Of a stretch of 64,000 nucleotides of DNA, positions 3,307 to 64,000 are shown piece after piece. The stretch's first letter is position 1; every line of letters starts with the position of its first letter. The position numbers were made by a program, and so were the translations under genes. Source of the stretch: Bradyrhizobiaceae bacterium (GTDB lineage Bacteria; Bacteroidota; Ignavibacteria; Kapaibacteriales; Kapaibacteriaceae); the NCBI GenBank assembly GCA_024103135.1, contig JAGFIZ010000102.1, positions 1 to 64,000 on the forward strand, written 5' to 3'. The notes below the pieces were generated by a model. That model was not told the DNA's origin. It searched no databases and worked only from the letters and a program-made list of their open reading frames with translations.

Positions 3307-3337
3307 AAGGGCAGCAGTGATCCTGCTGCCCTTTTTT
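3307..3337 (+). terminator. Rho-independent terminator after the first gene
   Basis: Arms GGGCAGCAG and CTGCTGCCC (9 bp, extended by two A-T pairs) surround a 5-base loop and are followed by a T-rich tail. It closes the monocistronic surface-protein gene. Confidence 0.9.
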
Positions 3338-3380
3338 ATTCACGGTACCATTTGCCACGATCTAATTAGGACGGACGCTC

Positions 3381-8052: not shown

Positions 8053-8149
8053 ACCTCCATGATTGGAATTGTTGGCCCGAATGGATCATGTAACCAGGCA
8101 AACCATCTACTTGTGGCTACGAACTTAGCTCATGGTATCTTTGGTATCC

Positions 8150-8980: not shown

Positions 8981-9031
8981 TGGTGAACTCGCGAACCAGT
9001 GCCGTGAGTCCTGCAGTCTAACATCACAACC

Positions 9032-16638: not shown

Positions 16639-16640
16639 AC

Positions 16641-17126: not shown

Positions 17127-17156
17127 TCATCCAAACATTCCCCAGAGCACATTCTC

Positions 17157-19792: not shown

Positions 19793-20142
19793 GTAGAGAC
19801 TCACAAACGCCAGACCATGGTGAGCCACTCGTCAATGCAGCCGGCAAGGAGCCCGTTGCCATTGTCAAGCAGCGACGTCTGCTAAACAGATGGGGACTCT
19901 TTGCATTGTTCTTCATCACAGCGACAGCAACTGTTCTGTACGTGAGCAACGTGATTGCAGTTAACAAACTTTCGGCAGAAGTCGACGTTTACCGCAAGCA
20001 ATGTGACTCACTCGAAACGCTGAACAAGAGTCTGCGAACAGAAGCATACAAACTCCAGGGTTCAGAACGAATAACGCGTATTGCGGCTGACAAGCTTGGC
20101 ATGATACCGCCACCAGAAGCACCAGTGGTAATCAAGGAGTAG
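19789..20142 (+). CDS. ftsL: FtsL/DivIC-like division protein
   Basis: The 117-aa bitopic protein has a basic cytoplasmic tail, one membrane helix ('WGLFALFFITATATVLYVSN') and a short periplasmic coiled coil. It ends in the family-typical 'ERITRIAADKLGMIPP'. FtsL proteins join the divisome subcomplex that activates septal transpeptidase. It sits 4 bp upstream of a PBP gene, as expected of an ftsL-ftsI pair. Sequence alone does not separate FtsL from DivIC/FtsB, so the symbol is provisional. Confidence 0.75.
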   Translation: MSRDSQTPDHGEPLVNAAGKEPVAIVKQRRLLNRWGLFALFFITATATVLYVSNVIAVNKLSAEVDVYRKQCDSLETLNKSLRTEAYKLQGSERITRIAADKLGMIPPPEAPVVIKE

Positions 20143-43314: not shown

Positions 43315-43315
43315 G

Positions 43316-44587: not shown

Positions 44588-46176
44588 ACCCCGATCCTCT
44601 CTAGTATCTTCTTCAACGCTTTGTCCGTCTCCCGCGCCACCGCTTCGATGGCGTCTAGTTCCTCAACTATCTCGGCGATGGATCGGTAAGTTTCGGCGTC
44701 GCTGGTATAGATGTACCGACTCGGAGAGATGTTATAGTCGTTCTTCCTTAGCTCTGCAATGTCAACAGTTCGACTAAATTTTTCAACCTCCAACCAACCG
44801 ATGAGCGTTTGCGTGATCCGGTCAATACCGGCGCCAGGAATGTAGTTTTTAGGATCACCCTTATCGAAGATCTGACTAGCATTAACCAGCAACACTTTGC
44901 CTTTTCGATTTTTGGTCTTGGCTTTGTTCAGAAAGAGGACAATGCCAGGAGCAGTGGTGTTGTAGAAGAGGTTCTCTGGGAGGTAGAGCACGCTTTCAAT
45001 GAAGTCCGAGTCCACGAACCACTGACGAACACTTTTCTCCTTGCTAGTACCCGCGTTACCCGAGCCCCTTGAAGCAGCTCCGGTGTCAAGAACGATGGCT
45101 GCTCGACCGGTTTCGTTCAAGCTGGCATGTATGTGCTGCACCCAGCCCCAGTCAGCAGAGGATTGGCCTGGAAAGCCTGCGCCAGAGGGAAACCGTCCAA
45201 GCTCGTCGGCGTCGTAGTCAGCCTCGGTGTACTCCTTCTGATTCCACATTGGGTTGGCTACAACTCTATCGAACGTGCGCAGCTTACCGCGTTGATCCCG
45301 GAACTTGGGATTCTTGAATGTGTCGCCAATCTCGATCTGACCTTCCATGTCGTGAATGATCATGTTCATGATCGCCATGGCCCATGTATCCGCGGTGTAC
45401 TCCTGACCGTAGAGTTTGAGAGGTGCAGCCGCGCGTTTTGCTGCTGCTCTCGTATTCGCTTCCATTGCGATCTCGCATTTGATCAGCAGGCCGCCAGAAC
45501 CACAACAGGGATCGTATATCTCCATCCCCGGCTCTGGCTGAAGTACACGCGACATGATGGTACCAACCTCTGCTGGTGTGTAGAACTCACCCGCACTTTG
45601 TCCGCCCCCTTCGGCGAACTTTCGAATCAGGTACTCATAACTCTTACCGATTATATCCGCCTCGACATCATTGAGACCTAGGCGCTTGGTGCTGATGGCC
45701 TCGATGAGCCTGGAGAGCCGATCATCGTCTATTTCTCGCTGACCGTGCGTGACGGCATTGAAATCCACCCTGTCAACAATCCCTAGCAACCGCGGGCTCT
45801 CCCGAGCGATGGCACGCATGTGCGATGTTACCTGCTCGCCGATTCCGTCAGACAGCGTACGGATCACGCTCCACACAGGCTGCTGCGGGTCTGCGGGTTC
45901 AAGTGGGAGATAGAAGCGCACCAGACCATGGTCGCGCTTCACAATTGCCAGCGCCTTCTCCCGCGAACCGACATCACGTGCTAGCCGGTCGATCTCGTCA
46001 TCATACACGTCACATAGACGTTTCGCAAAGATGAGCGGGAGAATGTAGTCCTTGTATTTCGGGGCATCCCTTGCACCACGGATAGAACATGCCGCATCCC
46101 AAATCCACGACTCCAGCGATTTGTCTGCTGTGCGTACTGAATCGTTTGTGGAATTTGTGGTGGGGCGTTTGGGCAT
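44584..46176 (-). CDS. hsdM: Type I DNA (adenine-N6) methyltransferase subunit
   Basis: The 530-aa subunit has the HsdM N-terminal helical domain ('YKDYILPLIFAKRLCDVYDD'), SAM-binding motif I 'DPCCGSGGLLIKCE' (about 221-234) and catalytic motif IV 'VVANPMWNQKEY' (about 308). The motif is NPMW rather than the usual NPPF/NPPY, a variant that may belong to a subfamily. It forms the modification complex with HsdS and starts the six-gene minus-strand operon. Its promoter should lie in 46177-46352. Confidence 0.94.
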   Translation of the reverse strand: MPKRPTTNSTNDSVRTADKSLESWIWDAACSIRGARDAPKYKDYILPLIFAKRLCDVYDDEIDRLARDVGSREKALAIVKRDHGLVRFYLPLEPADPQQPVWSVIRTLSDGIGEQVTSHMRAIARESPRLLGIVDRVDFNAVTHGQREIDDDRLSRLIEAISTKRLGLNDVEADIIGKSYEYLIRKFAEGGGQSAGEFYTPAEVGTIMSRVLQPEPGMEIYDPCCGSGGLLIKCEIAMEANTRAAAKRAAAPLKLYGQEYTADTWAMAIMNMIIHDMEGQIEIGDTFKNPKFRDQRGKLRTFDRVVANPMWNQKEYTEADYDADELGRFPSGAGFPGQSSADWGWVQHIHASLNETGRAAIVLDTGAASRGSGNAGTSKEKSVRQWFVDSDFIESVLYLPENLFYNTTAPGIVLFLNKAKTKNRKGKVLLVNASQIFDKGDPKNYIPGAGIDRITQTLIGWLEVEKFSRTVDIAELRKNDYNISPSRYIYTSDAETYRSIAEIVEELDAIEAVARETDKALKKILERIGV

Positions 46177-47989: not shown

Positions 47990-48769
47990 TTATGGTACAA
48001 GCTTTTTTATCTCTTGCTCGGCTAATGCGGGCTTACCATTTAGCTCATACTCGTTCACTCTGCTTACAATGGACTTAGCCTGTTCTATTCTGTCTTTACG
48101 CCATTGGGCAGAGTTCCACTCAACACTTAGATTTTCGACTAAGTCAAAGAAATAGTCCCTCAAGCTTGTGCAGAAAAAGAAGTAACGTCCGGCGGCCCAT
48201 TGCTCTAGACTGAACGAATCAAAGACATATCCAGACCGCGCGTTCCAGTACTTTAATAGTCTGATCGCAGGCTTCAATTTGCTGTCACATCGTGTGTTGG
48301 CTGATGTGAGCTTAGTATTAAAATCGCGGGGCGATGTACCCATCCACTCCAGAAAACTTGTCTGAGGAGCAGGAATTCTGAACTCATAAAAAAAGCCCTC
48401 AATAGCTGGGACTAGGTCAAACTTGATGTGATTTAGGCTTAACACCACGGAGGGGTGCGATTGGACAATGTCCGACGACGAATAGTACTTCTCGGCGAAT
48501 CTCTTCAATCGACTCACATACGTTTGCGGTTTGTAGGTGTTATCGGCAAAGACAATCATGTAGTCTATGTCAGATTGCGAGTCCATGTTGCGCGGCAGGA
48601 TCGTTCCGCGGGTTGATGAACCGAACACAAACTGTTCCGAGATATCGTCACCGAAATGCAAGTCAAGACGGTTACGCAACGTATCGACCGATGAGCTGAT
48701 CGAACTACGTTCTTTTTCAGACAGGATCGCACTACCAGCTTTACTTGTCAGATGCGTCTGGACTGACAT
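47990..48769 (-). CDS. CD-NTase-like nucleotidyltransferase (SMODS/CBASS type)
   Basis: The 259-aa protein has the nucleotidyltransferase motif G50-S51 in 'FVFGSSTRGT', D67-x-D69 in 'SQSDIDYMIVF' and a third carboxylate, D118, in 'HIKFDLVPA'. An OAS1-like helical C-terminus follows ('LKPAIRLLKYWNARSGYVFD'). CD-NTases make cyclic or linear oligonucleotide second messengers on phage infection. It is shorter than most (about 300-400 aa). It lies 3 bp after a SLATT effector gene, a pairing known for CBASS-like systems. Confidence 0.82.
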   Translation of the reverse strand: MSVQTHLTSKAGSAILSEKERSSISSSVDTLRNRLDLHFGDDISEQFVFGSSTRGTILPRNMDSQSDIDYMIVFADNTYKPQTYVSRLKRFAEKYYSSSDIVQSHPSVVLSLNHIKFDLVPAIEGFFYEFRIPAPQTSFLEWMGTSPRDFNTKLTSANTRCDSKLKPAIRLLKYWNARSGYVFDSFSLEQWAAGRYFFFCTSLRDYFFDLVENLSVEWNSAQWRKDRIEQAKSIVSRVNEYELNGKPALAEQEIKKLVP

Positions 48770-48772
48770 TGC

Positions 48773-49264
48773 TTACTCACTGTAATCGGACTCCCCATTC
48801 TTGATTCCAATCTTTGCTTTGTTGTACGCCCAGTCCGGTATCTGTGGGGATGACGCATTTAGGTCGTCTCGCTTGACGACTAGTTCTTCGAATACGGCCT
48901 GGATATCATCGTCGGATCTGTCGCTTTTTGTGACAATGTTTAGAAATATCCTGGCCCTATTTCGCAGAGTAAGGTACTCTCCTGCACATCTCCTATGAGA
49001 CAGAGTCCATTCATTCGGATTCAAGAACGTGCTGACTGCAGTAATAGCCGCTACCGTGACTGCTAAGCTTCCGGCTAAAATATCCGATCCCTTAAAAGCA
49101 CTGACCCCAGCTAACGCCGCAGCGATAACATTGGGGATACCAATCCAGAGATGAATCGATCTCCATCGAGTAGCAGCGTTGTAGTGAGACTTCGCTGAGT
49201 GCAGTGCGTCTTCTGCAATCCGCTTAGCTTCGTTTCTGTACTCTGATAGTAGTTCGGGGCGCAC
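48773..49264 (-). CDS. SLATT-domain two-helix membrane effector
   Basis: The 163-aa protein has an N-terminal amphipathic helix, two membrane helices at about residues 36-57 and 61-81, and a helical C-terminus ('NEWTLSHRRCAGEYLTLRNR'), the SLATT (SMODS- and SLOG-associated 2TM) layout. Such effectors are thought to form membrane pores on binding the CD-NTase product and so kill or arrest the infected cell. It is the first gene of the cassette. No start downstream of 49264 would retain the N-terminal helix. Confidence 0.83.
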   Translation of the reverse strand: MRPELLSEYRNEAKRIAEDALHSAKSHYNAATRWRSIHLWIGIPNVIAAALAGVSAFKGSDILAGSLAVTVAAITAVSTFLNPNEWTLSHRRCAGEYLTLRNRARIFLNIVTKSDRSDDDIQAVFEELVVKRDDLNASSPQIPDWAYNKAKIGIKNGESDYSE

Positions 49265-50580: not shown

Positions 50581-51471
50581 ATGGTCAGGATTCTTTCGCT
50601 CCTTGCCGTCCTCGTGGTGATCACGTTAAGTGCGCTCAATGTTTCTGCGCAAGGTGTTCCACCTCCCTGTGTCCCGGATTGTTTTGGCAATCCATTTGGT
50701 CCAACCCAGAAAATTGTATTTACCACACCGGGTGGATGCACCGTTCGTGTCTGGTACTCGTGGAGAATTGCATGTGGCTTATACCGCGATCTAGCTATTC
50801 AGAAGATTGAGATCCTGGGTTCTTGCGGGCAACCGTCCTCCATGTTAATGGACGACATCACGGAACACCTGTTTCTTACAAACCCCATGGGCTTCCCCGA
50901 ACCGGATACGGCTGAGTGCGACACGCTTTATCGCGTTACCAGGGGTCAGTGTTGGCGCAGAGATACGGTTGACTGTGATGGGGACACTCTTATGCTTCCA
51001 TGTAGCAGTGGTCCAAGCTGCTGCTTGGTGCGATATGAGGTTTGCCTTGACTCCGCAGGCACCAAGACCGTTCGACCCTTTGCGGCTGAGGTGTTAATCG
51101 ACACATGTATCGTACCACCTGGTGCCACATGCGAGAATGTGTGCACTGTGCCTCATTACAAAGCCCCATCTCACAGTGGAGCAACGATAAGCACTAAGCA
51201 TTCTTCAATTGGTGCTAGCTCAGTTAGAGTTATCCCTAATCCGGTGAGCAGTGATCTAACTGTTGCGGTTCGCGGACTAACTCCTGGTGTTTGGACGGCT
51301 ACTGTTGTCACAAGCACAGGGCAAAGCGTAGTTACGGAAGTCCTAATAGTGAATGCTTCAGGTATTGGTGAGATCTTCATCGACTCCAGAAGTATGGCTA
51401 TTGGTACACACGCGCTGCGACTAACAAATGGTTCTGAGTCTTACAGCTCAACCTTTGTCGTGAGCAGGTAA
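50581..51471 (+). CDS. Cys-rich exported protein with T9SS-type sorting domain
   Basis: The ATG at 50581 follows an AGAGGTG ribosome site and opens the signal peptide MVRILSLLAVLVVITLSALN. The product is 296 aa. The N-terminal domain is Cys-rich ('PPPCVPDCFG', 'GGCTVRVWYSWRIACG', 'GQCWRRDTVDCDGD', 'GPSCCLVRYEVC'), implying several disulphides. From about residue 217 a T9SS sorting domain follows ('VRVIPNPVSSDLTVAV'). The Cys-rich part is related to the product at 61113-61859. It is the first gene of the surface operon. Confidence 0.78.
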   Translation: MVRILSLLAVLVVITLSALNVSAQGVPPPCVPDCFGNPFGPTQKIVFTTPGGCTVRVWYSWRIACGLYRDLAIQKIEILGSCGQPSSMLMDDITEHLFLTNPMGFPEPDTAECDTLYRVTRGQCWRRDTVDCDGDTLMLPCSSGPSCCLVRYEVCLDSAGTKTVRPFAAEVLIDTCIVPPGATCENVCTVPHYKAPSHSGATISTKHSSIGASSVRVIPNPVSSDLTVAVRGLTPGVWTATVVTSTGQSVVTEVLIVNASGIGEIFIDSRSMAIGTHALRLTNGSESYSSTFVVSR

Positions 51472-51494
51472 TCGGTTACTAACCAGGTAACGTC

Positions 51495-53681
51495 ATGAAC
51501 CCTCGACACAACATCTCCTTGGTTCTGCTGTTGGTTGCAGTCGCTGGCGGTGCTCAAGCCTCCAGCGATTCAGCAGCAAAGGTTCGGAATCCCGACCTGA
51601 TAATGAGACATCGGTTTGTCTACACGGATGATGTAGACAAGGATGTGGCTGCGTTGCGACTCAAGCCTTCAACACTACTAGCTGGTGTCAAAGTTGCCCT
51701 TGGTGGCGAAAAGGGGGCTCTGGTACGTTTGAGAGTTGTTAACGCTCCGCACTACGTCAGCACAGCCAGAGGTGCTCTGGACTTTGTTCCTCCCGTTGAG
51801 GTAGTAAAGGAAACTGCTGGACCAGAGGTCGCAACTCTAACCTTTCAAGAACCTGTGTCCATTCCGCACGGCTGGTGCTTTGTGGTCGTTGAGAGGGTAG
51901 TAGGAAAGGCGGCGTTGCTTACTAGTAACGCAGACTGTCCATTATTGTGTGAAGGAAGCCAGGGGGACATTTACCCACGACAGTTAGTTGTCCATGGTGA
52001 TAAATGGACACATGCAAAATCACAATACGCGGTAGAAGCACTCACCGCACCTGCCGACTCAGATGGTTCGAATTCCTGGACGTTAGATACTGTTCCTACT
52101 AGCACCTTCAACGTTGTAGCAGATCGCAAAAGATTCACGTGCAATGCTGTGCTACAATCGAAACCCGGAAGCGTGCCCATGGTGCTAGTCAATGGGTCGC
52201 AGTATAAGATCAATCAGAATTCTCTGGACACCACCATCGAGGGCCAACATCAAGATCTACTGCGCATTGGAAGTGTTGTTGTACCAGTATCTGGTGAGGC
52301 GCCGTTGTTTGTTGAGTTGCCACTTGGAGACCACATTGGCAGAGTGTATCAACGAACTGGATTGAAGGCGACTGCGCTTGTTTCAGAATTTTCCATCCCT
52401 CGCATAAACAGGATATTAAGCGCCGCGGTTGCTGATGTCAATGGAGATGGACTAGAAGATGTTATAGTGATTTCAGAATCGGAATCAGGAAAACCTGATG
52501 TCTTTGTGGTGGAGAGCGGTGATGATAGCGGGTACGATGTGCATCTCCAAAATGCTTTTCAGCTCATAACCACTCCCACTTCCGTTAATGCAGGTGATCT
52601 TAATGATGACGGTTTGGTAGACCTTGTGTGGACTGTTGCTGATAGACCAGCGTTGCTTGTCACATTCCAATCTCAAATTGGAGGATGGAAACTGGACAGC
52701 ATCAACCGCGATGCTTCGATAAGTGAAAGTCTGCGCCCTGTCTTTTATCCTAATCATGGGATGAGACCGGGTTTGACGGCGGGCTACCGCAGGACAATTG
52801 AAGTTAAGGATGCAGCTCACATTGAGCTGTGTGGTCAAGCAGTCTCAGTCTCACAATCTTCGTTTCTAACGAGGGATGCCGCACAGATTCTTCCGATATC
52901 GGTCGGTCAGAATAGTTCCCGGAGCCTAGTCATTCCAGGATGTACTTGTCAGCCGACGATGGTTGTAAATGTAGATGAAGGCATAGCGTCTGACATGACT
53001 GGGCAGTGTCCAATTGGAAAAGGACTTCCCGTTAGCGAAGCACTTGTTTTCACGAGCGCATCTGGTTCGTTAGGTATCATAACTGTGGGCGATAGCGGGA
53101 TAGCGCTCAACTCTCAGAGGGCCAATGGCTCAAAACCCGAGATCTTACTTTACAGGAATGGACCACATAACGGTGCATTTGTGAGATATCAAGTTGCTGG
53201 TGTATGGTACTCTACAATTGCATCACAGTCGTTTGGAGGGGCAAGCCAGCTTACAGATGCCTCCGTCGCGGGGATAGACACAGACGAAATTGATTCCCTG
53301 ATTGTCACCTGGCCCGGACAGCCCAGAAAACAAGAGTTGTTCACTAGGACTCTGGATGGATTCCCATCCGTGATAGCATTTGGAACAGGCCGTCCATATG
53401 AACAACCTTCCCGTCTTGAAATCTCCGTGGTGCCTAATCCTGTTTCCGATCATGCGCGAATTGTCGTTAAAGGTCCACCAGATGTTTCGCTTACCGTGCG
53501 AGTCACAAACACACAAGGCCGCGTCCTATTCGAACAGATGTGTGTAACCGATGCTACTGGTCAAGTAGAGATATCATTTGACCCAGATGATACCGAGGTC
53601 TCAGCAGCAGGTTCGCTCATTGCAACAGCCTCTGGGCAGGGTATGCAGGCTTCGAAATCTTTTGTTGTTATCAAGAACTAG
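51495..53681 (+). CDS. T9SS-exported FG-GAP/VCBS and ASPIC-like protein
   Basis: The 728-aa protein has a signal peptide (to 'GGAQAS'). FG-GAP/VCBS-type calcium-binding repeats lie around residues 310-375 ('VADVNGDGLEDVIVIS' and 'AGDLNDDGLVDLVWTV'). A region near 'VAGIDTDEIDSLIVTWPG' resembles the ASPIC/UnbV domain that often follows FG-GAP repeats. The C-terminus is a T9SS sorting domain ('EISVVPNPVSDHARIVVKG'). It is probably a surface adhesin or complex scaffold. It starts 23 bp after the Cys-rich gene. Confidence 0.8.
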   Translation: MNPRHNISLVLLLVAVAGGAQASSDSAAKVRNPDLIMRHRFVYTDDVDKDVAALRLKPSTLLAGVKVALGGEKGALVRLRVVNAPHYVSTARGALDFVPPVEVVKETAGPEVATLTFQEPVSIPHGWCFVVVERVVGKAALLTSNADCPLLCEGSQGDIYPRQLVVHGDKWTHAKSQYAVEALTAPADSDGSNSWTLDTVPTSTFNVVADRKRFTCNAVLQSKPGSVPMVLVNGSQYKINQNSLDTTIEGQHQDLLRIGSVVVPVSGEAPLFVELPLGDHIGRVYQRTGLKATALVSEFSIPRINRILSAAVADVNGDGLEDVIVISESESGKPDVFVVESGDDSGYDVHLQNAFQLITTPTSVNAGDLNDDGLVDLVWTVADRPALLVTFQSQIGGWKLDSINRDASISESLRPVFYPNHGMRPGLTAGYRRTIEVKDAAHIELCGQAVSVSQSSFLTRDAAQILPISVGQNSSRSLVIPGCTCQPTMVVNVDEGIASDMTGQCPIGKGLPVSEALVFTSASGSLGIITVGDSGIALNSQRANGSKPEILLYRNGPHNGAFVRYQVAGVWYSTIASQSFGGASQLTDASVAGIDTDEIDSLIVTWPGQPRKQELFTRTLDGFPSVIAFGTGRPYEQPSRLEISVVPNPVSDHARIVVKGPPDVSLTVRVTNTQGRVLFEQMCVTDATGQVEISFDPDDTEVSAAGSLIATASGQGMQASKSFVVIKN

Positions 53682-53696
53682 TTGCCAAGAGCACCT

Positions 53697-54263
53697 ATGA
53701 ACAACCTCGCAGTTAGCGAAACGAAATCTTTGAGTCGTGTTGCTTTGATAGCAAGCATCGTAAGCGCAGTTCTCTCGTTGCTACTTGTTGTGGCAGTAAT
53801 GACGGGATGGCTCACAGGTGCACCTAAGGTAGGTTATGTCCGGACAGGTGAGGTTATCTCCGGAAGCGTCGCATTCAAAAGTGCGCGCTCTAGCTATGAG
53901 AAACAGATCATGGCTTGGCAGACAAATCTTGATACGTTGGAGTCAGAGTATGCAAGGAATCTGAGTCAGTTTAACAGCGCCTCACTGCAAATGGACGATG
54001 ATGCAAGGGAAAGCCACCAGATAGGACTTGCAGAGCAACGCGCAACAATCGAGCGTTACTCGACGGCTATCAGCCAACGGGCAAAAGAAGAAGAGAAAAG
54101 GTTGTCAGATAGTCTGCTCAAGCAGATAAACGCATCGGTTGAACAGTATGGCCGAGAGCATGGATACGATGTAATCCTGGGTACCACATCAGAAGGTAGT
54201 CTGTTGTATGGATCCGAAGCGACAGACATTACAAAGAACGTGCTCGACTTTATCAACAGATGA
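53697..54263 (+). CDS. OmpH/Skp-like periplasmic protein with membrane anchor
   Basis: The ATG at 53697 is chosen over a TTG at 53682 in the same frame. The 188-aa product has one N-terminal membrane helix ('VALIASIVSAVLSLLLVVAV'), then 'VGYVRTGEVISGSVAFKSAR', a long charged coiled coil and the C-terminal 'YGREHGYDVILGTTSEGSLL', all typical of OmpH/Skp. Skp chaperones carry unfolded outer-membrane or secreted proteins through the periplasm. In this operon the natural client would be the 2122-aa RHS-like protein or the barrels; that is inference. Confidence 0.8.
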   Translation: MNNLAVSETKSLSRVALIASIVSAVLSLLLVVAVMTGWLTGAPKVGYVRTGEVISGSVAFKSARSSYEKQIMAWQTNLDTLESEYARNLSQFNSASLQMDDDARESHQIGLAEQRATIERYSTAISQRAKEEEKRLSDSLLKQINASVEQYGREHGYDVILGTTSEGSLLYGSEATDITKNVLDFINR

Positions 54264-54748
54264 AACTTCATGTTGCGATATCGGCTTCGCTGATCGCCGC
54301 TGCGGTGCTAATAGTGTTGTACCTGGTACGCATCTCCGGCCCAGTTATAAACGGGGAGCTGGCTTTTCGATTTACTGCGAGGAATCTCGTAGTACAGCTC
54401 TATAGCATGTCGACCACCAAAGAAGACATAGCAAAATACCGGCTGGAAGTTGTAGACACTGCAAGTCAGATCAACCCATTGGTTCGTGGCGTACATGACT
54501 ACAACGATTTCCGTCAACGAGTAATGGTTGCTACGATCAGCGATGTTAGTGGATGGTCTGTCTCCACAACTGGTGGTAGCATTGTTGAAGGCAAGTGGCG
54601 ATGTGAGGACACACAGACTATATCGGGTAAGCTCATCTTCCATATCGTGTTCCCGAATGTGCAAGTTCAGGATGTGGTGGAGTTGAGTTGGCGCGATCAG
54701 CTATTCGAAACAGGAACGCACAAGTTCAAACCTGGACAGGGAATATGA
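54260..54748 (+). CDS. Single-span membrane protein of unknown function
   Basis: The 162-aa product overlaps both neighbours by 4 bp (ATGA at each end). One N-terminal membrane helix ('VAISASLIAAAVLIVLYLVR') is followed by a small beta-type periplasmic domain. No family is recognised. Its place between the OmpH-like gene and the giant RHS-like gene suggests a helper role in its export or display. Confidence 0.62.
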   Translation: MKLHVAISASLIAAAVLIVLYLVRISGPVINGELAFRFTARNLVVQLYSMSTTKEDIAKYRLEVVDTASQINPLVRGVHDYNDFRQRVMVATISDVSGWSVSTTGGSIVEGKWRCEDTQTISGKLIFHIVFPNVQVQDVVELSWRDQLFETGTHKFKPGQGI

Positions 54749-57700
54749 ACATCTTCAGAATTAGAAATCGTCGTGTATTCCGCACCCTTGCCCTTGTGCT
54801 AGGACTTTCTATGGTAGCTGAGATGGTTGCACCAGCAGCAGTTTTTGCAATCACCTCTGGACCGTCTCAGCCGGACTTCGCATCATTTGAACCGGTGGCC
54901 ACAACAAACATGGTCGACCCTGCATCGGGTGGGTTCACGTACAATCTTCCTGTTGTGCAGATTCCTGGACCGGGTGGTGGCTATGCCTTGTCGCTATCAT
55001 ATCATTCAGGCGTTCGACCCACCGACGATGCTAGTTGGGTCGGATATGGTTGGACCTTAAATCCAGGCGCAATCAACAGGTCTGTTCAAGGTGTGCCTGA
55101 TGATTTCTCGGGTCAGAATGTGAAGACATTCTATAAAGGTCCAGCCGACGAGACAATCGCTGCTGGATACGATGTATCGTTTGAAGCATTCAGCATCGAT
55201 GTTGTCAAGCTAAGCGTTGGTTATAGTAAGATGGTCAGGTTCAACAACTATCGCGGCTTGAGCTTTTCTGAAGGGCTAACGACCAACATAGCGGGCTACG
55301 GAACACTCTCGTATCAAGCGGATGGTCATACTGGCAAATTTGGGATCTCAATCTCGCCCATGCCTTTGCTGGGAGAAATCGCTCAGTTCGGAATCAGTCA
55401 GATGGAGTCTATTTTATCGACTGCCGATCCTTCCGGGAGTCTTGGAGGATTCCAGTTGGCAAAATCTGTTGCCGTCGGTCTTGCTCGAAATGCAGTAAGT
55501 GCCACGTCCTCTTTAGCCAGTGGCTACACAGTTCAGCTACTCTCACCGCGCATTCTTGCGACGAGTTCACCGCAGTTTAGTTCCGATTGCTTCAAGGTTG
55601 GGATACGGGCAAAAATTGCACTCGTACCGATAGTTCCAGGAGAGATAGGACCGAGTGCAGGATTTGAAGGTTCGTATACGGTTCAGAGACCTAGTGACCA
55701 CGTTACAAACCAAGCCTATGGGATCATGTATCAAGGCCGAACTGAAAGGCTCAGTGCTCAAGCAAAGTCCAGCGTTGTCTATGACTACTCTACTGATCGT
55801 GAAAACCCATACACAGATCGCGACCTCTATTTACACGCCCCCTTCAGCACTCCGGATTCTTACAACCTTACAGGTGAATCTCTAGCAGGATCTTTTCAAG
55901 CGCACAATCGAAAGCTTGGAATCGTACATCCACCGCAAAGAAGTTCGGTCACCAACATGCACGACATCGACGCGCGTGTGAGCATAGGCTTTGCCACAGG
56001 AGGTGGAGGTTCTGGTACCAAGGGCAAGCAAGAATCGAAGGTTCGTCCCTGGAGCGACCCGGATACAATCAGGTTCGCAAGTGCCACTGACACCATGGAG
56101 TCATGGTACGATGGTGAACCAGTCTTTTTCAGATTTACCGGTGATCTTGGTGGCAAGGTTGGTTGGACAGAATCGGACGATGCCGTAAGAGTGCCTGCAA
56201 GTAGGAATGGTCCCAACTACGATGGGCTTGGTATTGACACACTGATGAACGATGGTGCAAGATCAGGGAGGAGTTCAAACATCTCTTACGTAACGAACCG
56301 TGAAATGTATGCGCATTACAGCCTAGGCAAACTTCGACGTGCATACACTCCGATCTCCAAGATGATGGAACATGTAGATCGCTCAGAAGCATGCCTTGCA
56401 GATTTAGTTGGCGAGTTTACGGTTACAAATGAGAGCGGTGTAACCTATACATATGGCTTGCCGGTATTCGCCCGCAACGAAAAGAATTTGCAGTACGGAG
56501 TAGCTGGAAGCTGGGGTGATGCCTTCAAAACACACCCTAAGAAGGAGCAATCTCATCATTCAAATGCTCCCACAGTCAACGGTCAAGTCAGAGAGGATCC
56601 GTATGTATCAACTTACTTGCTGACGCAGATTCTTAGCTCGGACTATGTGGACAGAACGGATAACGGACCGTCGTCAGACGACTTCGGATCATATACTGTC
56701 TTCAGCTACCAGCGCTGTGCGGGTACTTATCTGAAGGAGATGGATCCCGCCACGTCACACCAATGGTATCGTTGGCGAACCCCTTATACGGGCCAATATT
56801 ATCAGCCAGGCAGAATGCTTGACAACAAACTCGCAGGTGATTACAAAGATGACCGGGGCATCGTCTCTTCTGGTGAGAAGGAAGTATACTTTCTTGAATC
56901 TATCCAGACAAAAACACATACAGCCGTATTTGTCACGAACAAGACAAACTTCGAAGCCAACGGAGTTTCCGGTGCTATGACCATCAGTGGATCACAGCGT
57001 GAACGTCTAGACGCATATGAAGCCTACAATCCACCAGAGGTCATGCCAGAGTCTGAACTAGAGAAAGTAAGTGCAAGTGACCCAGGGAAAATCCAAACTG
57101 GGTATGATGGAATCTGGAATTCTGAGTTCGCCGGCAGATACTACGATGGCAAGGTAATGACTCCGGACAAGGTGGTATCTGGAGTAAAGGCAAACAAGAA
57201 TCGGTACCTTGAGCGAATTGAACTGTGGTCAATGGACTCCACTGGTGTGTTCAATGAGCTTCTGCAGACGGCGAGGTTCGAGTACGACTATTCGACTATG
57301 ATGGCTGGGACCGGGAAGTGGGAAGCGTACGACTCCATTGCACATGTTACTAGGCACTATTATTCACCACCTACAGATTTGAACTCAGCCGTAGGGCTCA
57401 CGCTTCACAATCTGTGGCCGGAGACAGCGGAAACAGCTGTAGGTCTCTACAGATATGGTAAACTCACGTTGAGACGAGTTTGGTTTGAGTACGGTGGCGT
57501 CAAGTCAGCGCGCATTTCGCCATACGAGTTCGACTACAGGAATCCTCCGAAATCAGAGTTTGCCTCGCATATCACAGACAAGTATGGGGCAGTTTTCGAT
57601 GGATATCCAGAATCACCACCTACGCTGGATTCAACAGGGTGGTTGATAGATAAGGAAAATCCAAGCTATGACGAAGCAAGCACGGATCGCTGGGCATATC

Positions 57701-60700
57701 ATACTGGGTATGCTGGAGCTGTGAAAAGATCTAACTATGCCCCCTACGTACCTCAGGTGCCGGACGGCTTCGATCCGGCTGCATGGAATCTGAAGTCGAT
57801 TACGTTGCCATCGGGAGGCAGGATTCTAATTCAGTACGAACAGACAGATTACCTGTACGTGCAGGACCAGATCGCTACGGCAATGACTCCGCTTACGTTA
57901 GTCAATAATGACGACAATTATGTAGAAGTCAACGTTAAGAAGATTGGAGTAGCAGCAGACAAGATTGATCAGTACGCAACAATGCTCAGGTCGTATGTCA
58001 AGGATAGACGGCTAAACCTTAGAGCGCTGTATCAATTTCAGAATTGCGCTCCATATGTTGGGACAACGTTCCCAACGGATCGTCCTGTAGACTTTGTCTC
58101 TTGTTACCTCAATTCACAGAATGTTGAAGTTGTTAATGACTCGACGATTAGAGTAAGCTTCAATTCAGATCAAACACCACACGACGCAGCCGTGGATTAC
58201 GCTCGCGCAAACCGGGCAAAGGACTATGACTGTAGTGGCAAGTCGCGAGTGAGTATGGACAAGATCAAAGAGATCGAGTTCTGGGGAGCGTTTGTCGCAA
58301 ACTTGCTCCCATTGTCCCAGATACTTCAACAGTTTCAGGTTCCACCAACCCAACCGATTCTTCAATTCAGCTACCTACGATTGCCTGTTCTTAAAGGCAA
58401 ACTGGGTGGAGGAATTCGAGTTAAACGATTGCTGATGTATGATAAGGGGCTTGAGGCAGGCGATGAAGTGTTGTATGGCACAGAGTATATCTACAAGAAG
58501 TGGCAAGAAGTTGGTGGCGTGAACACGCTGGTCAGTAGTGGCGTAGCATCGAATGAGCCTAACCCTGGCCGCGAAGAGAACTGCCTTGTTCAACCAATCA
58601 AACAAAGGGAGACCCAAGACCTCCTTGAGGAGATTCTGTACGGGGCTGATTTGGACAAGTTTGAGGGTCCATTGTGCGAGTCGTGTCTACCTTCTCCTGG
58701 CATAACTCATTCACAAGTGGTGATGCAGTCAATCAATGATGGCGTTACAAACACCGGGCATACAATTGCGAGTTTCTGGACCTGGCAAGACCACCCGGTG
58801 TCGATTGCGTGGACTACAGTCGAAAAGGATGCAATCGTCCCGATACCAGTCATCGACTTCCTGAGCTCAATATCTACCGAAAAGTTCTTCTCGTCCCAAG
58901 GATATGCAATCATTATTCCGGGAATGAACGCAAGACAAAAGTCAACCATCCAATGCCAGGGTAGATTCAGTACATCACAACCGGAGTCTCCAAGTACAGT
59001 AGCAACGATTGAGTACGAGTACTTTAAAACAGGTGAAGGAATCCCGGTTCTGGACAGTGGAGTCTTTGGTGGGATATCACTTCAGAAACTTGGACGTGAG
59101 GAACAGATAACTCTGGAGAATCGGATTGTCACGGACAGGACTGAACTGTCTACGATTTCCATCGATGCTGGAATAAACTTTCCTAGCCTGGCCTTGCTTT
59201 TCCCGACGCCGTTTTTCACAGGGGCGTATACCTACTCCTTGAACGACAAGGCATGTGCCATGAGTGTTGTAACGAAGGTGATTTCCTACCCGGCTGTTGT
59301 AAAGAGAGTGATTCAAGAACATAGAGGTGTACGCCAGGTTACAGAGAATGTGGCCTTCAATCCTGAAACGGGCAGACCAGCAATAACCATGACCTATGAC
59401 GCATTCAACAAGAAGGATCTGCAGCAGTCAACAGGTCACATAGGTACGCTCACACAGATCGAAGTACCGGGGTCTGCTGTGTACGCGCAGCTTGGGCAGA
59501 TGGCTGCCAATGATCGCATGTATACGCGCCTCGTGTCTTACGAAAGAATTTTACCTGACAGTTTCAAACTCAAATTCCCTGTCAACCCAGTAAACAGACA
59601 CTGGTTGGGAGACCTAGTGCATGTTCGAGCGAATGCGGTTTTTAAAGCAATTGGTCATGTGACACGGATTTCCGGAGACACCGTCTTTTGTAAAACAGTT
59701 TCATGGAGTGCGATCGCTAGCCCAGTGCCAGCGACTGGAAATGCAACTGTTGAACTACTTCGGTCGGGGAGGAAGAACTATCTGACACAAACGGTCGGGT
59801 CAGTTGTTGCGTATGGGCTCGACTCAGCATTCTTTGCAAACACCACTAGTATCCTCAACGATGCGGATGGCATCATTAGTGCGTCAGCCTCGATCCTTAC
59901 AGAAAACTGGCCGATAGATCAGGCTGAGTATGGAACGGTCAGCGGTACAAACCCAAACAGCTTTGAAAAGGGAAATCGAGGTAGGTGGGCTCCATCGAGT
60001 AATTGGGTCTACTCTGATTCTACACTGGGTTCCACACAAGGTACCCAGAGAATCTATAAGGGTGGTGTTGTGGCAAGTGCCTGGGCCCCATTCGACTGGA
60101 ATGCGAGTTCTCAGAATTCCAAATGGATAATGACGGACTCCATAACCAAGTTTGATCCATTCGCCAATCCCACAGAGTCAAAGAATGCAATCAACGTGTA
60201 CTCATCAGTTCGGTTTTCACACTCTCAGACCATGCCTTCCATCATCGCTGTTAACGCTCAGCGCAGTGGCATTCTGTTTCAGAGTTTCGAGGATAGAAGT
60301 GGAGTAGACACTTCAGCCGCTCATACAGGTAGACGATCATTGAAGCTGACCGATACTAGTGTGGCGACGACTATCGACAACATTGACGCTGATGCGCCGA
60401 ACAATGCAACTGGTGTTGTTGTGCGATTGTGGGTGAAATCAGTAAGCGGCGCAGTAAACGTCAAGATTGGATCAATTGAAAAAACGCCTGCACAGATAGG
60501 CAGATCTGGGGACTGGCGCTTGGTTGAGGCTAAGTTTAGTCCCAGCGATTTCAGCGGGCTAAGTGCTACAGAAGCCCTATCAGTAAGACCCACGGGTTCG
60601 ACCCCTGTATGGGTAGATGATGTTAGAATGGTGCCGTTTTCTTCGAAGAGCACCTGCTATGCCTACGATCGCTCTTCCCTGCGTCTGATCGCACAATTCG

Positions 60701-61113
60701 ATGAATCGCACTTTGCAACCATTTATCAGTACGACGGTCAGGGCCGACTTACACGTCTCGTTAAAGAGACTGAGCGCGGAATAAAGACTGTCAAGGATGG
60801 CTCATACCATCAACCCCTCGTTGAACGCCATGAGTGTACTGGCGACAATGCTGTTGCATATTTCTCAGTCATGAAACGGTTCGGGAATATGGGAATCAGC
60901 AGAGTAGGATCTATACTTAACGATGGTGTTCAGAAGCTCATTCCAACTAACAGCAGTCCAGGCAGTTTGGAAGGTCAATTCGATGTTCTTGAAATGAACA
61001 TTGGGATTGACTCAACAAGCACGTCGATCTTTGGCAGGCGGGTGGATACGTTGCTTATTCCTAAGCAACAAAAGCAGGAAAAAGTTGGCGAGGTAGGAAG
61101 GGGGCCGAAGTAA
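54745..61113 (+). CDS. Giant RHS-like cell-surface protein
   Basis: The ATG at 54745 gives 2122 aa with an N-terminal signal-like helix ('TLALVLGLSMVAEMVAPAAV'). The N-terminus has the Bacteroidetes RHS/SpvB-like hallmark 'PASGGFTYNLPVVQIPGPGG' followed by 'GYALSLSYHSGVRPTDDASW' and 'GYGWTLNPGAINR'. A carbohydrate-binding-like beta domain lies near residues 1845-1955. One RHS YD motif, 'YQYDGQGRLTRLVKETERG', lies near residue 1995, about 125 residues from the end. No Hint, toxin or T9SS sorting domain is visible, so it seems to lack a classic polymorphic-toxin tip. It is likely a large secreted beta-cage or filamentous surface protein. Confidence 0.8.
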   Translation: MNIFRIRNRRVFRTLALVLGLSMVAEMVAPAAVFAITSGPSQPDFASFEPVATTNMVDPASGGFTYNLPVVQIPGPGGGYALSLSYHSGVRPTDDASWVGYGWTLNPGAINRSVQGVPDDFSGQNVKTFYKGPADETIAAGYDVSFEAFSIDVVKLSVGYSKMVRFNNYRGLSFSEGLTTNIAGYGTLSYQADGHTGKFGISISPMPLLGEIAQFGISQMESILSTADPSGSLGGFQLAKSVAVGLARNAVSATSSLASGYTVQLLSPRILATSSPQFSSDCFKVGIRAKIALVPIVPGEIGPSAGFEGSYTVQRPSDHVTNQAYGIMYQGRTERLSAQAKSSVVYDYSTDRENPYTDRDLYLHAPFSTPDSYNLTGESLAGSFQAHNRKLGIVHPPQRSSVTNMHDIDARVSIGFATGGGGSGTKGKQESKVRPWSDPDTIRFASATDTMESWYDGEPVFFRFTGDLGGKVGWTESDDAVRVPASRNGPNYDGLGIDTLMNDGARSGRSSNISYVTNREMYAHYSLGKLRRAYTPISKMMEHVDRSEACLADLVGEFTVTNESGVTYTYGLPVFARNEKNLQYGVAGSWGDAFKTHPKKEQSHHSNAPTVNGQVREDPYVSTYLLTQILSSDYVDRTDNGPSSDDFGSYTVFSYQRCAGTYLKEMDPATSHQWYRWRTPYTGQYYQPGRMLDNKLAGDYKDDRGIVSSGEKEVYFLESIQTKTHTAVFVTNKTNFEANGVSGAMTISGSQRERLDAYEAYNPPEVMPESELEKVSASDPGKIQTGYDGIWNSEFAGRYYDGKVMTPDKVVSGVKANKNRYLERIELWSMDSTGVFNELLQTARFEYDYSTMMAGTGKWEAYDSIAHVTRHYYSPPTDLNSAVGLTLHNLWPETAETAVGLYRYGKLTLRRVWFEYGGVKSARISPYEFDYRNPPKSEFASHITDKYGAVFDGYPESPPTLDSTGWLIDKENPSYDEASTDRWAYHTGYAGAVKRSNYAPYVPQVPDGFDPAAWNLKSITLPSGGRILIQYEQTDYLYVQDQIATAMTPLTLVNNDDNYVEVNVKKIGVAADKIDQYATMLRSYVKDRRLNLRALYQFQNCAPYVGTTFPTDRPVDFVSCYLNSQNVEVVNDSTIRVSFNSDQTPHDAAVDYARANRAKDYDCSGKSRVSMDKIKEIEFWGAFVANLLPLSQILQQFQVPPTQPILQFSYLRLPVLKGKLGGGIRVKRLLMYDKGLEAGDEVLYGTEYIYKKWQEVGGVNTLVSSGVASNEPNPGREENCLVQPIKQRETQDLLEEILYGADLDKFEGPLCESCLPSPGITHSQVVMQSINDGVTNTGHTIASFWTWQDHPVSIAWTTVEKDAIVPIPVIDFLSSISTEKFFSSQGYAIIIPGMNARQKSTIQCQGRFSTSQPESPSTVATIEYEYFKTGEGIPVLDSGVFGGISLQKLGREEQITLENRIVTDRTELSTISIDAGINFPSLALLFPTPFFTGAYTYSLNDKACAMSVVTKVISYPAVVKRVIQEHRGVRQVTENVAFNPETGRPAITMTYDAFNKKDLQQSTGHIGTLTQIEVPGSAVYAQLGQMAANDRMYTRLVSYERILPDSFKLKFPVNPVNRHWLGDLVHVRANAVFKAIGHVTRISGDTVFCKTVSWSAIASPVPATGNATVELLRSGRKNYLTQTVGSVVAYGLDSAFFANTTSILNDADGIISASASILTENWPIDQAEYGTVSGTNPNSFEKGNRGRWAPSSNWVYSDSTLGSTQGTQRIYKGGVVASAWAPFDWNASSQNSKWIMTDSITKFDPFANPTESKNAINVYSSVRFSHSQTMPSIIAVNAQRSGILFQSFEDRSGVDTSAAHTGRRSLKLTDTSVATTIDNIDADAPNNATGVVVRLWVKSVSGAVNVKIGSIEKTPAQIGRSGDWRLVEAKFSPSDFSGLSATEALSVRPTGSTPVWVDDVRMVPFSSKSTCYAYDRSSLRLIAQFDESHFATIYQYDGQGRLTRLVKETERGIKTVKDGSYHQPLVERHECTGDNAVAYFSVMKRFGNMGISRVGSILNDGVQKLIPTNSSPGSLEGQFDVLEMNIGIDSTSTSIFGRRVDTLLIPKQQKQEKVGEVGRGPK

Positions 61114-61859
61114 TGAGAGCCGTCAACCTGCAAGTGCTTCTACTACAGATATGCCTTGCTTTAGTGCTTCCTGGCACGCTGATCGCCCAGGGAATCAATC
61201 TTGATTGTGATGTCTGTGCTCCACCCGACACGCTTCATCATCCTAACACGTGGTTCCAGACCACGATAGCTATTGGAAGTGGTTGCGCGGTCCAAGTGCA
61301 TTATTCTACCAACAAGTGCATGCCTAGCGGATGTCATGTGCTGAACATTGATCGCATGTCATTCATTGGCGAAGGATGTGTGTTGTATTGTCCATGGGAG
61401 TTGTTCGCATTGGTGGTTGGCACCATGATCACAGACAACACCATCAACTTTCCGTTCGATTCTCTCGCGGAAAAGGAATGCCTATTACTGGCGCAGCCAA
61501 GATGCTGGCGGAGACACTCCGGATATGATACATGTTTTATCTCGGAGAACTATTATGAGCGGTACATTCCTTGTGACATGGACGAGTGCTGTTTCATGAA
61601 GATTGAACTATCTCCAGATGGCTGTGGTCAATGGTTGTTGGCCGACGTTGACACAAGCGTAGTGCATGATTATTACGGTTCAGAAGTGTGGGAAGCGCAA
61701 ATGGGGACCGAACCTTGCGATGTGTGTATGAATCCGGGTCCACCCATACCGAATCCAGCTGCTCCGGCAGATTGCCGTGACGATCACGTTTGCTATTGGA
61801 GCTGCAAGCAAGATCTGGTGAAAAGATTCTTGACCATGCAAAGAAAGTTCGTCAAGTGA
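61113..61859 (+). CDS. Cys-rich exported protein, paralogue of 50581-51471
   Basis: The start overlaps the RHS-like stop (TAATG). The 248-aa product has a signal peptide (to 'GTLIAQ') and a Cys-rich domain sharing with the first operon gene 'GCAVQVHYS', 'ECLLLAQPRCWRRHSGYDTC' (compare 'CWRRDTVDC') and 'CCFMKIELSPDG'. Unlike that protein it has no clear sorting domain; it ends in a basic helix. A GTG start for the next gene overlaps its stop. Confidence 0.72.
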   Translation: MRAVNLQVLLLQICLALVLPGTLIAQGINLDCDVCAPPDTLHHPNTWFQTTIAIGSGCAVQVHYSTNKCMPSGCHVLNIDRMSFIGEGCVLYCPWELFALVVGTMITDNTINFPFDSLAEKECLLLAQPRCWRRHSGYDTCFISENYYERYIPCDMDECCFMKIELSPDGCGQWLLADVDTSVVHDYYGSEVWEAQMGTEPCDVCMNPGPPIPNPAAPADCRDDHVCYWSCKQDLVKRFLTMQRKFVK

Positions 61860-62566
61860 ACGCCAACCTATCGATATCGGTTCTCGTAGCCGTGGTATTA
61901 ACTACGTGCGGACAGATTGTATATGCCGGAAACGCAATTGACGACATAAGGGAGTCGCTTAAGCACTATGAGGCAATGGTTAAGCGAGGCCGATCCGGAT
62001 GTGGTCGAATCAAGGCAGTGATGATTACAGAGTCTCGCAAATCAAAGGTAGATAGTGTGGAAGTCTGCATCACCACGTCCAACGATGCAACTGAAGTCAA
62101 GACGGGTTCGTCCATCGTGCGCTCAACGAGCAAGAAGCTCGTAGCCGTATACCCTGCAGCTAAAAAGATTCTGATCAAGTCCAACTACTCAACTGGACCC
62201 GAATTGGAAGGGGCGGCCACGTTAAACAAGATGACATCGGTTCTCCTTGGTGGCTGTAAGGTAGAAAGCGATGTGATCTCTGGTAAGAGCAGACGTGTTG
62301 TAGCTGTCATTTCAGGCACAAAAGGTAAGCCTGCCAACATCCAGAGCATTGTGTTCATCCTAGATGCAACAAGCAATCGACTTGTTGAAGCAACGATGAC
62401 CTATCGCGAAAACCAACCATTGGCTCGGGCAACACTTAAATACACTGAAGTAAGCGTTGACATACGATCACCAGAGTTTGCTACTGGCAGGCTCGACGTT
62501 GGAATTCTTGACGGCAAAGGGAAACCCGAGAGATCCTACGCCGGATATGAGATTGTCACGAATTAA
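61856..62566 (+). CDS. Exported protein of unknown function (LolA-like fold possible)
   Basis: The frame opens at 61790 (TTG), but a GTG at 61856 overlapping the previous stop gives a standard signal peptide ('NLSISVLVAVVLTTCGQIVYA') and 236 aa. The mature part has alternating short strands and 'DDIRESLKHYEAMVKRG' at its start, reminiscent of LolA/outer-membrane lipoprotein-sorting proteins, but the similarity is faint. It is part of the surface operon. Confidence 0.58.
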   Translation: MNANLSISVLVAVVLTTCGQIVYAGNAIDDIRESLKHYEAMVKRGRSGCGRIKAVMITESRKSKVDSVEVCITTSNDATEVKTGSSIVRSTSKKLVAVYPAAKKILIKSNYSTGPELEGAATLNKMTSVLLGGCKVESDVISGKSRRVVAVISGTKGKPANIQSIVFILDATSNRLVEATMTYRENQPLARATLKYTEVSVDIRSPEFATGRLDVGILDGKGKPERSYAGYEIVTN

Positions 62567-62584
62567 CAAGAACGGACTACCTGA

Positions 62585-63706
62585 ATGCAACGGAACCATT
62601 TGACTACGAACCAGACATTGCTGTTCACATTATTACTCATGTGCACTGGACTATATCTGACTGGTTGCAGTAGTAACCCAGACGATCCGGGTGGAAATCC
62701 ACCTCCTACAAATGCCGGAACAATGGTTGTGAAGGTTCTGGACTACCACGGCAACCCGATTAGCTCGGCCATGGTGAATATCCAGGGAACGGATGTCTCT
62801 GTAGATGGTAACGGACTAGTGACCTACCAGGCAAAAACTGTCCCGGAATATGTAGAAGTCAAGGTTCACAAGTCAGGGTGGATGTTTACACCGGATTCGT
62901 TGAAAAATCTGATCGAAGCTAACGACAAGGATACCATCACCATTCGTGGTGAGCAGCCGTCGGACCCGTTGTTTGTTGACATGGTTATAGTGTCTGCAGG
63001 TACCTTCATTATGGGGTCAGACTCAACCTTTGACCGTACGGAGAATTCAAGACCGACATATGAAGCAACCATTACGAGGGCATACTACATTGGAAAGTTC
63101 GAAGTAACTGAGAAGTTATGGAGAGCGGTAATGGGAAGTGACTCAAAGTCTACAGGATGTGATAACTGCCCAGCGGTTGGAGTTACTTATATGGATGCGA
63201 TAACCTTCTGCAATGAACTTTCCCGAAAAAAGGGGTTAGAGCCTCCCTATACAATCAGCGGACCATATGTTTCATGGAATGATGCAGCAGATGGATTCAG
63301 ATTACCAACCGATTGTGAATGGGAGTTTGCCGCAAAAGGTAACCTGACCACTGCATGGTATCGAGGCTCATATGGTGACTGGGCTGAGTTGAACAAGATT
63401 TCCTGGACAGGAGACAACTCGGGTAATACTAAACATGAGGTGGGGTTACTGGAACCAAATGCGAGAGGCATGTTTGATGTACTTGGGAATGCAGATGAGT
63501 GGGCATGGGATTGGTATGCAGATCCAAACTCAGACGCGAAAACTGATTACAAAGGACCATCATCAGGTGAGCGGAGAATATTGAAAGGCGCATCCTTTCT
63601 AACTGGTCAAGGTGGCCATTTCTTGTACAAACGCACCGGAACACCACCAGTGCCAACTAACTCAATATTGCCTGGTGCTGGGTTGCGTTTAATACGGAGA
63701 CCGTAG
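62585..63706 (+). CDS. Lipoprotein with Ig-like and formylglycine-generating-enzyme-like domains
   Basis: The 373-aa protein has the lipobox 'LYLTGC' (Cys at residue 28). A carboxypeptidase-regulatory-like Ig domain follows ('VVKVLDYHGNPISSAMVNIQ'), then a SUMF1/FGE fold from about residue 138 ('VIVSAGTFIMGSDSTFDRTE', 'GFRLPTDCEWEFAAKG', 'GMFDVLGNADEWAWDWY'). The paired C-terminal cysteines that bind copper in active FGE are absent ('ILKGASFLTGQGGHFLYK'), so a structural role is likely. T9SS lipoproteins GldJ/GldK also use this fold, but this is not clearly either. Confidence 0.82.
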   Translation: MQRNHLTTNQTLLFTLLLMCTGLYLTGCSSNPDDPGGNPPPTNAGTMVVKVLDYHGNPISSAMVNIQGTDVSVDGNGLVTYQAKTVPEYVEVKVHKSGWMFTPDSLKNLIEANDKDTITIRGEQPSDPLFVDMVIVSAGTFIMGSDSTFDRTENSRPTYEATITRAYYIGKFEVTEKLWRAVMGSDSKSTGCDNCPAVGVTYMDAITFCNELSRKKGLEPPYTISGPYVSWNDAADGFRLPTDCEWEFAAKGNLTTAWYRGSYGDWAELNKISWTGDNSGNTKHEVGLLEPNARGMFDVLGNADEWAWDWYADPNSDAKTDYKGPSSGERRILKGASFLTGQGGHFLYKRTGTPPVPTNSILPGAGLRLIRRP

Positions 63707-63708
63707 TC

Positions 63709-64000
63709 ATGCTTAAGAATGCAGCTTGGAATAGCTACGTGACCGGATACTTCCTGTATACCACCAAGGCATGTATGCTGGTGGTTGTCAGCATCTTCAT
63801 GCTTTCACAGCCGCTAACGGCACAAAAAAGCTCGGAAACAATTCAAGAGTATTACACGCAAACGCGCACCACTTTTGATAAGAGGGAAGGATTAGTTTTA
63901 CAGCTGGACTCAGCATGCGGGTTGAATCTAAGCGCAAATCCTAGACCGGATTATTGTGCAGATAGATGCATTTCGAAAGCCTTTCTCCGAATCTCTTTTG
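63709..64000 (+). CDS. Exported protein, 3' end beyond the window
   Basis: An ATG at 63709, 2 bp after the previous stop, opens a frame that stays open for 97 codons to the window edge. It starts with a signal peptide ('ACMLVVVSIFMLSQPLTAQ'). The mature N-terminus has three or four Cys ('LQLDSACGLNL', 'YCADRCISKAF'). It may be another Cys-rich surface protein, but too little is visible to name it. Confidence 0.6.
   Translation, partial: MLKNAAWNSYVTGYFLYTTKACMLVVVSIFMLSQPLTAQKSSETIQEYYTQTRTTFDKREGLVLQLDSACGLNLSANPRPDYCADRCISKAFLRISF

Follow-up and report, generated by a model that had tools for sequence, protein, structure and literature searches.

The question raised by this locus was what is made by a closely packed run of envelope genes around a giant RHS-like protein. 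The locus lies in the window, a 64,000-bp stretch (positions 1-64000 of the 85,364-bp contig C98, JAGFIZ010000102.1, assembly GCA_024103135.1) of the 2.71 Mb draft genome, in 137 contigs, of a bacterium of the Kapaibacteriaceae. A sequence-only reading had described a nine-gene operon around a giant without a toxin tip. Nine tightly packed plus-strand genes were indeed present from 50581 (gaps -4 to 23 bp), the ninth cut by the window end; the tight run stood, and extension along the contig showed ten genes, to 71768. The missing tip was an artefact of the window end: the ninth gene, which had been called another exported protein, is the start of a second giant of 2,539 amino acids (aa), and it is this giant that bears the tip. 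The probable product of the operon at 50581-71768 is an Rhs polymorphic toxin of two subunits, together with the proteins that handle it. The two giants (RHSa and RHSb), the candidate immunity gene and the putative periplasmic helpers are as follows, numbered by their order in the operon.

54745..61113, + strand: gene 5 (RHSa), 2,122 aa, TcB-like giant without RHS core and without tip.
63709-71328 of C98, + strand: gene 9 (RHSb), 2,539-aa TcC/Rhs-type giant, from the contig sequence; the window holds 63709..64000, its first 292 bp.
71325-71768 of C98, + strand: gene 10, 147-aa exported candidate immunity protein, with a 4-bp overlap with gene 9.
53697..54263, + strand: gene 3, 188-aa Skp/OmpH-like chaperone with an N-terminal membrane anchor (PF03938, 82 bits, cut-off 32.4).
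54260..54748, + strand: gene 4, 162 aa, divergent and shortened member of a ~210-aa lipoprotein family.
61856..62566, + strand: gene 7, about 236 aa, exported LolA-fold protein.

RHSb comprises YD repeats, an RHS core and a polymorphic C-terminal tip at residues ~2300-2539. The YD repeats were found with TIGR01643 (32.9 bits, cut-off 15.8), and in a search of the genome PF05593 exceeded its cut-off in the RHSb frame at 68524 and in the RHSa frame at 60664; a DUF6443-like stretch in RHSb scored 24.6 bits (cut-off 27.8). A profile built from eight RHSb proteins matched RhsP (E 1.6e-11) and the core region of YenC2 (E 7.6e-9), and also Tse5. Among RHSb proteins of eight loci, pairwise identity was 0.34-0.59 along most of residues 1500-2300 and fell to 0.06-0.08 in residues 2301-2539; such an abrupt drop directly behind the core is the signature of a polymorphic toxin. 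Sequence comparison thus shows RHSb as a conserved body and RHS core followed by a hypervariable tip. The tip of one relative is phospholipase-A2-like, just under the Pfam cut-off; in the window's own tip, Cys and GHS motifs were noted by eye, which makes an NlpC/CHAP-like peptidase conceivable but is not claimed. In Flavobacteriia and Ekhidna two separate proteins, of ~1,600-1,680 aa and 3,550-3,770 aa, make up the RHSb part. The ~1,680-aa protein of Flavobacteriia was considered as a tipless form of RHSb and rejected, the second RHSb-like giant of 3,550-3,770 aa, with its own end, lying downstream.

Hallmarks of polymorphic toxins are seen across these loci: immediately behind the RHS core the tip is completely replaced, each tip is followed by a small gene, and orphan tips form arrays. 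In one relative (G125:C81), core fragments with differing tips come after the operon and alternate with genes of 145-192 aa. The cores of such orphans were 50-84% identical in this relative, 51-95% in a second (G013:C20) and 67-88% in a flavobacterium, with the tips diverging thereafter; no orphan tip cassettes were seen at the window's own locus. Gene 10 matched no recognised immunity family; its N-terminus is signal-peptide-like, and several of the small post-tip genes, gene 10 included, begin with signal peptides or lipoboxes, which suggests that the tips may act in the periplasm. The polymorphism of the tips, together with the arrays of orphan tip/immunity genes, points to a predicted polymorphic toxin of the contact-dependent type, and not to the adhesin that the sequence-only reading had offered as one possibility.

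For RHSa, full-length homologues were 31-39% identical, domain searches gave weak DUF6531 and RHS-repeat matches, and no PF03534 or TcdB_toxin_mid match was found by sequence. The N-terminal half (residues 30-1190) was modelled with AlphaFold2 (AF2) from 61 sequences, giving a predicted local distance difference test score (pLDDT) of 74 and a predicted template modelling score (pTM) of 0.75. Foldseek alone returned no significant match for this model, only chance-level ones, and VIA-align was then run on the same candidates. The model aligned with TcdB1-TccC2 at Z 15.3 (299 residues, 4.0 A), with the SpvB N-domain at Z 15.1 and with an Rhs core at Z 12.8. Among the top 18 chains, 17 were TcB/BC complexes, SpvB N-domains or Rhs cores of the type VI secretion system (T6SS), and one was a mosquito salivary surface protein; the TcB, SpvB and Rhs shells spanned Z 8-15, and unrelated chains started at Z 6.2 downwards. 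As modelled, RHSa is a TcB-like RHS shell protein without a tip, a likeness at the level of fold that does not imply function. A role for RHSa as an outer-membrane beta-barrel translocon was rejected, its crude strand amphipathicity being 1.5 times that of shuffled sequence, against 3.2 for SprA, and its fold matching Rhs shells.

RHSa homologues were present in 17 of 149 relatives. With one RHSa protein as query, a scan of named genomes gave nothing; with an RHSa alignment as query it yielded 268 relatives, from which 79 loci were kept. These span Kapaibacterium, Flavobacteriia (Aquimarina, Maribacter, Flagellimonas, Joostella), Cytophagia (Fulvivirga, Ekhidna, Hymenobacter) and Chitinophagia. 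By hidden Markov models (HMMs) from Kapaibacterial loci, OmpH, lipoprotein, LolA-like and RHSb genes adjoin RHSa in most loci. Both flanks were available for 56 loci, and in 36 of these the gene order was anchored Skp/OmpH protein, lipoprotein, RHSa, LolA-fold protein, RHSb, with Kapaibacteria, Flavobacteriia, Cytophagia and Chitinophagia all represented. The same order occurs in cultured strains, for example Ekhidna lutea DSM 19307 and Flagellimonas pacifica DSM 25885. Across the 79 independent loci (826 open reading frames), the matches lying next to RHSa on the same strand were 48/50 for OmpH, 54/54 for the lipoprotein and 55/55 for the LolA-like protein; the loci were gathered via RHSa, so these counts measure the company of RHSa and not the reverse. 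The homologues are therefore clustered beyond chance, not scattered, and the dedicated periplasmic OmpH/Skp-like chaperone of the sequence-only reading was borne out. By genomic context, the two giants are linked across Bacteroidota to a predicted anchored Skp/OmpH-like chaperone, lipoprotein and LolA-fold protein.

The helpers were characterised individually. Most gene 3 orthologues have, by inspection, a hydrophobic N-terminal anchor without an evident cleavage site; contig C118 of the same genome holds a tandem pair of further OmpH genes. Gene 4, earlier read as a single-span membrane protein, belongs to the lipoprotein family by a leave-one-out HMM (E 5.9e-6) and by the family alignment; the window copy lacks the lipobox and is ~50 residues shorter, whereas its orthologues retain both. 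Gene 7 had been taken for an unknown exported protein and is a LolA-fold protein: its AF2 model (pLDDT 85.5) gave Foldseek matches in the PDB led by LolA (8cgm, E 4.5e-12, TM-score 0.50 by query and 0.62 by target). By sequence there was no Pfam LolA match, and the LolA3 model NF053579 scored 24.3 bits, under its cut-off of 83; the model was matched by 8 of 35 members of the gene 7 family. Gene 7 most likely starts from the GTG at 61856, which forms a GTGA overlap with the stop of gene 6, rather than from the TTG at 61790.

The ten-gene plus-strand run covers 21.2 kb, and genes 1-9 start inside the window. Successive gaps from gene 1 to gene 10 are 23, 15, -4, -4, -1, -4, 18, 2 and -4 bp, the last lying beyond the window, and several junctions are ATGA or GTGA overlaps, a typical sign of translational coupling. 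The run is bounded at its 5' side by a gene-poor stretch after a divergent pair ending at 49264 and, beyond gene 10, by minus-strand genes. Internal promoters had been named as a point against a single operon; a sigma-70 scan found no excess of promoter-like sites (18, against 17.2 +/- 4.4 in shuffled sequence; Bacteroidota-type promoters were not scanned). The proposal of a coherent operon whose arrangement appears undescribed was upheld.

A working model can be set out from these parts. RHSa and RHSb, both of which carry probable Sec signals, would be secreted by Sec, and the anchored Skp-like protein would hold them soluble in the periplasm, where the LolA-fold protein and the lipoprotein would take part in their assembly. 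The two giants would close as a TcB-TcC-like cocoon around the tip. The cocoon would then reach the cell surface; in this lineage its export would probably go through, or together with, the type IX secretion system (T9SS), predicted substrates of which head the operon. Autoproteolysis of the core would free the tip, which would kill neighbouring bacteria, and exported gene 10 would protect the producer; the export of gene 10 again suggests the periplasm as the site where the tip would act.

Several results weigh against this model and are gathered here. The RHS core model TIGR03696 aligned over nearly its full length with the window's RHSb at 15.4 bits, below its cut-off of 32.5, and Pfam, NCBIfam, PHROGs and PDB sequence searches returned no family for the tip. 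No sequence homology between RHSa and RHSb was found by hhalign. The helpers were missing from 11 of 56 loci, which held RHSa and RHSb only (the remainder being partial), so the helpers are not strictly needed. With regard to exit, neither giant has a T9SS C-terminal sorting domain (TIGR04183, PF18962). The T9SS translocon SprA is present in the genome and in 37 of 37 RHSa genomes, yet it exceeds its cut-off in 147 of 149 relatives, and its presence is accordingly uninformative as to the exit route.

The alternative to T9SS is that the Rhs pair leaves by a type II secretion system (T2SS), fed by the Skp, LolA and lipoprotein helpers, and T2SS genes do flank the cassette in several Flavobacteriia, Cytophagia and others. 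Flagellimonas, Aquimarina, Joostella and Ekhidna have them downstream, as GspE, GspF, prepilins and a prepilin peptidase, with a secretin in three; in the flavobacterium of locus L079 the fetched sequence extends to two proteins that accompany this downstream cluster. In Hymenobacter, a Flammeovirgaceae, a Sphingobacteriales and Flavipsychrobacter the T2SS genes are upstream. T2SSF was found in 13 of 20 further RHSa genomes. The other 7 lack it, however, as do the window's own genome and every Kapaibacterial genome with a strong RHSa match, which contradicts this route for the window's lineage; as a general exit T2SS was rejected for Kapaibacteria, and overall the reading is unlikely. A common periplasmic stage with lineage-specific outer-membrane exits is plausible. 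It may be, and is put forward tentatively at somewhat under even chances, that a Bacteroidota-wide, undescribed assembly and export pathway exists, in which the anchored Skp-like chaperone, LolA-fold carrier and lipoprotein would pass a TcB/TcC-like cocoon to the exit of each lineage (T9SS in Kapaibacteria; T2SS in Flavobacteriia and Cytophagia). As a separate observation, the T2SS-like clusters beside the cassette (L163-L172, L106, L137, L140, L141) include two conserved uncharacterised proteins of ~280 and ~420 aa.

A little less probable than exit by T2SS is that the giants form a surface adhesin or structural coat, with the variable end of RHSb serving recognition and not killing. In Kapaibacteria the giants come with FG-GAP, Cys-rich and FGE (lectin-like fold) proteins, and no tip has a confident toxin family, as such a coat would allow; full replacement of the tip after the RHS core, the small gene with each tip, the orphan arrays and the phospholipase-like tip of one relative argue for a toxin. 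A Tc (ABC) holotoxin against eukaryotic cells, its TcA-like pore encoded elsewhere, would accommodate the TcB-like fold of RHSa and the TcC match of RHSb. This is improbable: no TcA gene was near any locus seen, the small and usually exported post-tip genes fit self-protection of a bacterial target, and TcA_TcB_BD (PF18276) was not found in the genome, a result to be read with control genomes that were silent too. Ordinary co-location of unrelated envelope genes in a fragmented metagenome assembly, which a draft in 137 contigs could invite, is refuted by synteny, the same order recurring in dozens of genomes, cultured strains included, and its probability is negligible.

Around the giants and helpers of the two-subunit toxin, the Kapaibacterial operons carry add-on genes that are scarcely present elsewhere, which in the window are the following.

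50581..51471, + strand: gene 1, 296 aa, Cys-rich exported protein of the CWRR family with a weak T9SS type A C-terminal domain.
51495..53681, + strand: gene 2, 728 aa, FG-GAP protein and predicted T9SS substrate (FG-GAP_3, 39.2 bits).
61113..61859, + strand: gene 6, 248 aa, second Cys-rich exported protein of the CWRR family.
62585..63706, + strand: gene 8, 373 aa, FGE-fold (C-type-lectin-like) lipoprotein (PF03781, 114.9 bits).

TIGR04183 scored 19.3 bits in gene 1 and 14.0 bits in gene 2 (cut-off 23). Orthologues of gene 2 head the operons of Kapaibacterial relatives and bear T9SS sorting domains, TIGR04183 exceeding its cut-off in two (28.5 and 37.1); the ASPIC domain earlier assigned to gene 2 was not recovered, the domain search giving FG-GAP only. 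Gene 6 is conserved directly 3' of RHSa in Kapaibacterial operons, where the expected co-occurrence of the CWRR family with RHS proteins holds. Gene 8 varies from 0 to 5 copies in relatives. In one (G029:C56; positions 16274-20000 of locus L046, and locus L047), five tandem FGE-fold lipoprotein genes lie between the LolA-like gene and RHSb, and near-identical pairs among them suggest recent duplication.

A second complete operon, with its own OmpH copy, lies on contig C27 of the same genome, and further Rhs loci lie on C106 and C94. The C106 locus (139-10214 of the locus, - strand) encodes a 2,558-aa Rhs giant without RHSa or helpers; it has a HELYGH motif in its tip and is preceded by a gene with a weak T9SS domain and by a Cys-rich gene that forms one family with genes 1 and 6. 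At C94 (121-9667 of the locus) a 2,336-aa Rhs gene stands just past an IS21-like istA/istB pair, whose insertion may have removed the start of the gene. Directly upstream of the window's operon (47990-49264, - strand) is a CBASS-like pair identified by PADLOC (oligonucleotide cyclase, 359.6 bits; 2TM/SLATT effector, 190.4 bits). Farther upstream (39749-46176, - strand) are type I restriction-modification genes, of which M and S were assigned by inspection; after these come an AAA ATPase and a UvrD-like helicase, whose resemblance to GajA/GajB of Gabija was judged by eye only. On the downstream side, C98 carries PDC-S54, a candidate defence gene (369 bits), together with another set of type I restriction-modification genes (about 72156-78495), and the operon thus sits in a defence island.

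Compared with known systems, the locus shares with Rhs/WapA polymorphic toxins (reviewed by Zhang et al. 2012, PMC3482391) the RHS/YD body, RHS core, hypervariable tip, small downstream gene and orphan tip arrays. It departs from them in that the giant protein is not single but one of a pair, and in that its operon includes a conserved trio of anchored Skp, lipoprotein and LolA. The N-terminal half of RHSa folds as TcB/SpvB and RHSb matches the TcC core of YenC2, as in Tc (ABC) toxins; unlike these, no TcA was found, both giants have probable Sec signals, periplasmic helpers lie alongside and RHSb is 2,539 aa long (97.2% of TcC proteins are 851-1,050 aa; PMC7861908). The TANFOR toxins of Bacteroidetes (Jana et al. 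2020, PMC7073777) are likewise secreted Bacteroidota proteins of large size whose C-terminal tips are polymorphic and which occur near predicted T9SS substrates; TIGR02542 gave no match at E 0.1 in RHSa or RHSb, and this domain content excludes TANFOR membership. With LolA3 of Flavobacterium johnsoniae, gene 7 has the LolA fold in common, and it touches the LolA3 model, but below the family cut-off; F. johnsoniae LolA3 is reported to lie at a separate locus, and its deletion to have left gliding and T9SS secretion unaffected (Commun Biol 2025, PMC11885536). Gene 8 is, like the T9SS ring lipoproteins GldK/GldJ, an FGE-fold lipoprotein, and scored 50.9 bits with the GldK model against a cut-off of 350. 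As to T6SS Rhs effectors, no PAAR match was found in RHSa or RHSb, and VgrG/T6SS genes elsewhere in the genome were not searched for. In the open-access (PMC) literature, to which the search was confined, no paper describing the cassette was found, and an earlier description may exist; nothing was found there on DUF6443 or on Kapabacteria with Rhs.

Rhs proteins of Gram-negative bacteria are usually linked to T6SS or to Tc injectosomes. The present locus is best read as an apparently undescribed operon for a polymorphic Rhs toxin, in which two shell proteins are combined with periplasmic helpers of their own; for it we infer toxicity, immunity, complex formation and export. For the way in which Sec-exported Rhs giants leave Bacteroidota cells, the cassette names concrete genes that are testable in cultured marine strains. 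It also provides a genomic context for the extra LolA-like proteins of Bacteroidota, and as a TcB/TcC-like pair with which no TcA was found it bears on the evolution of Tc toxins.

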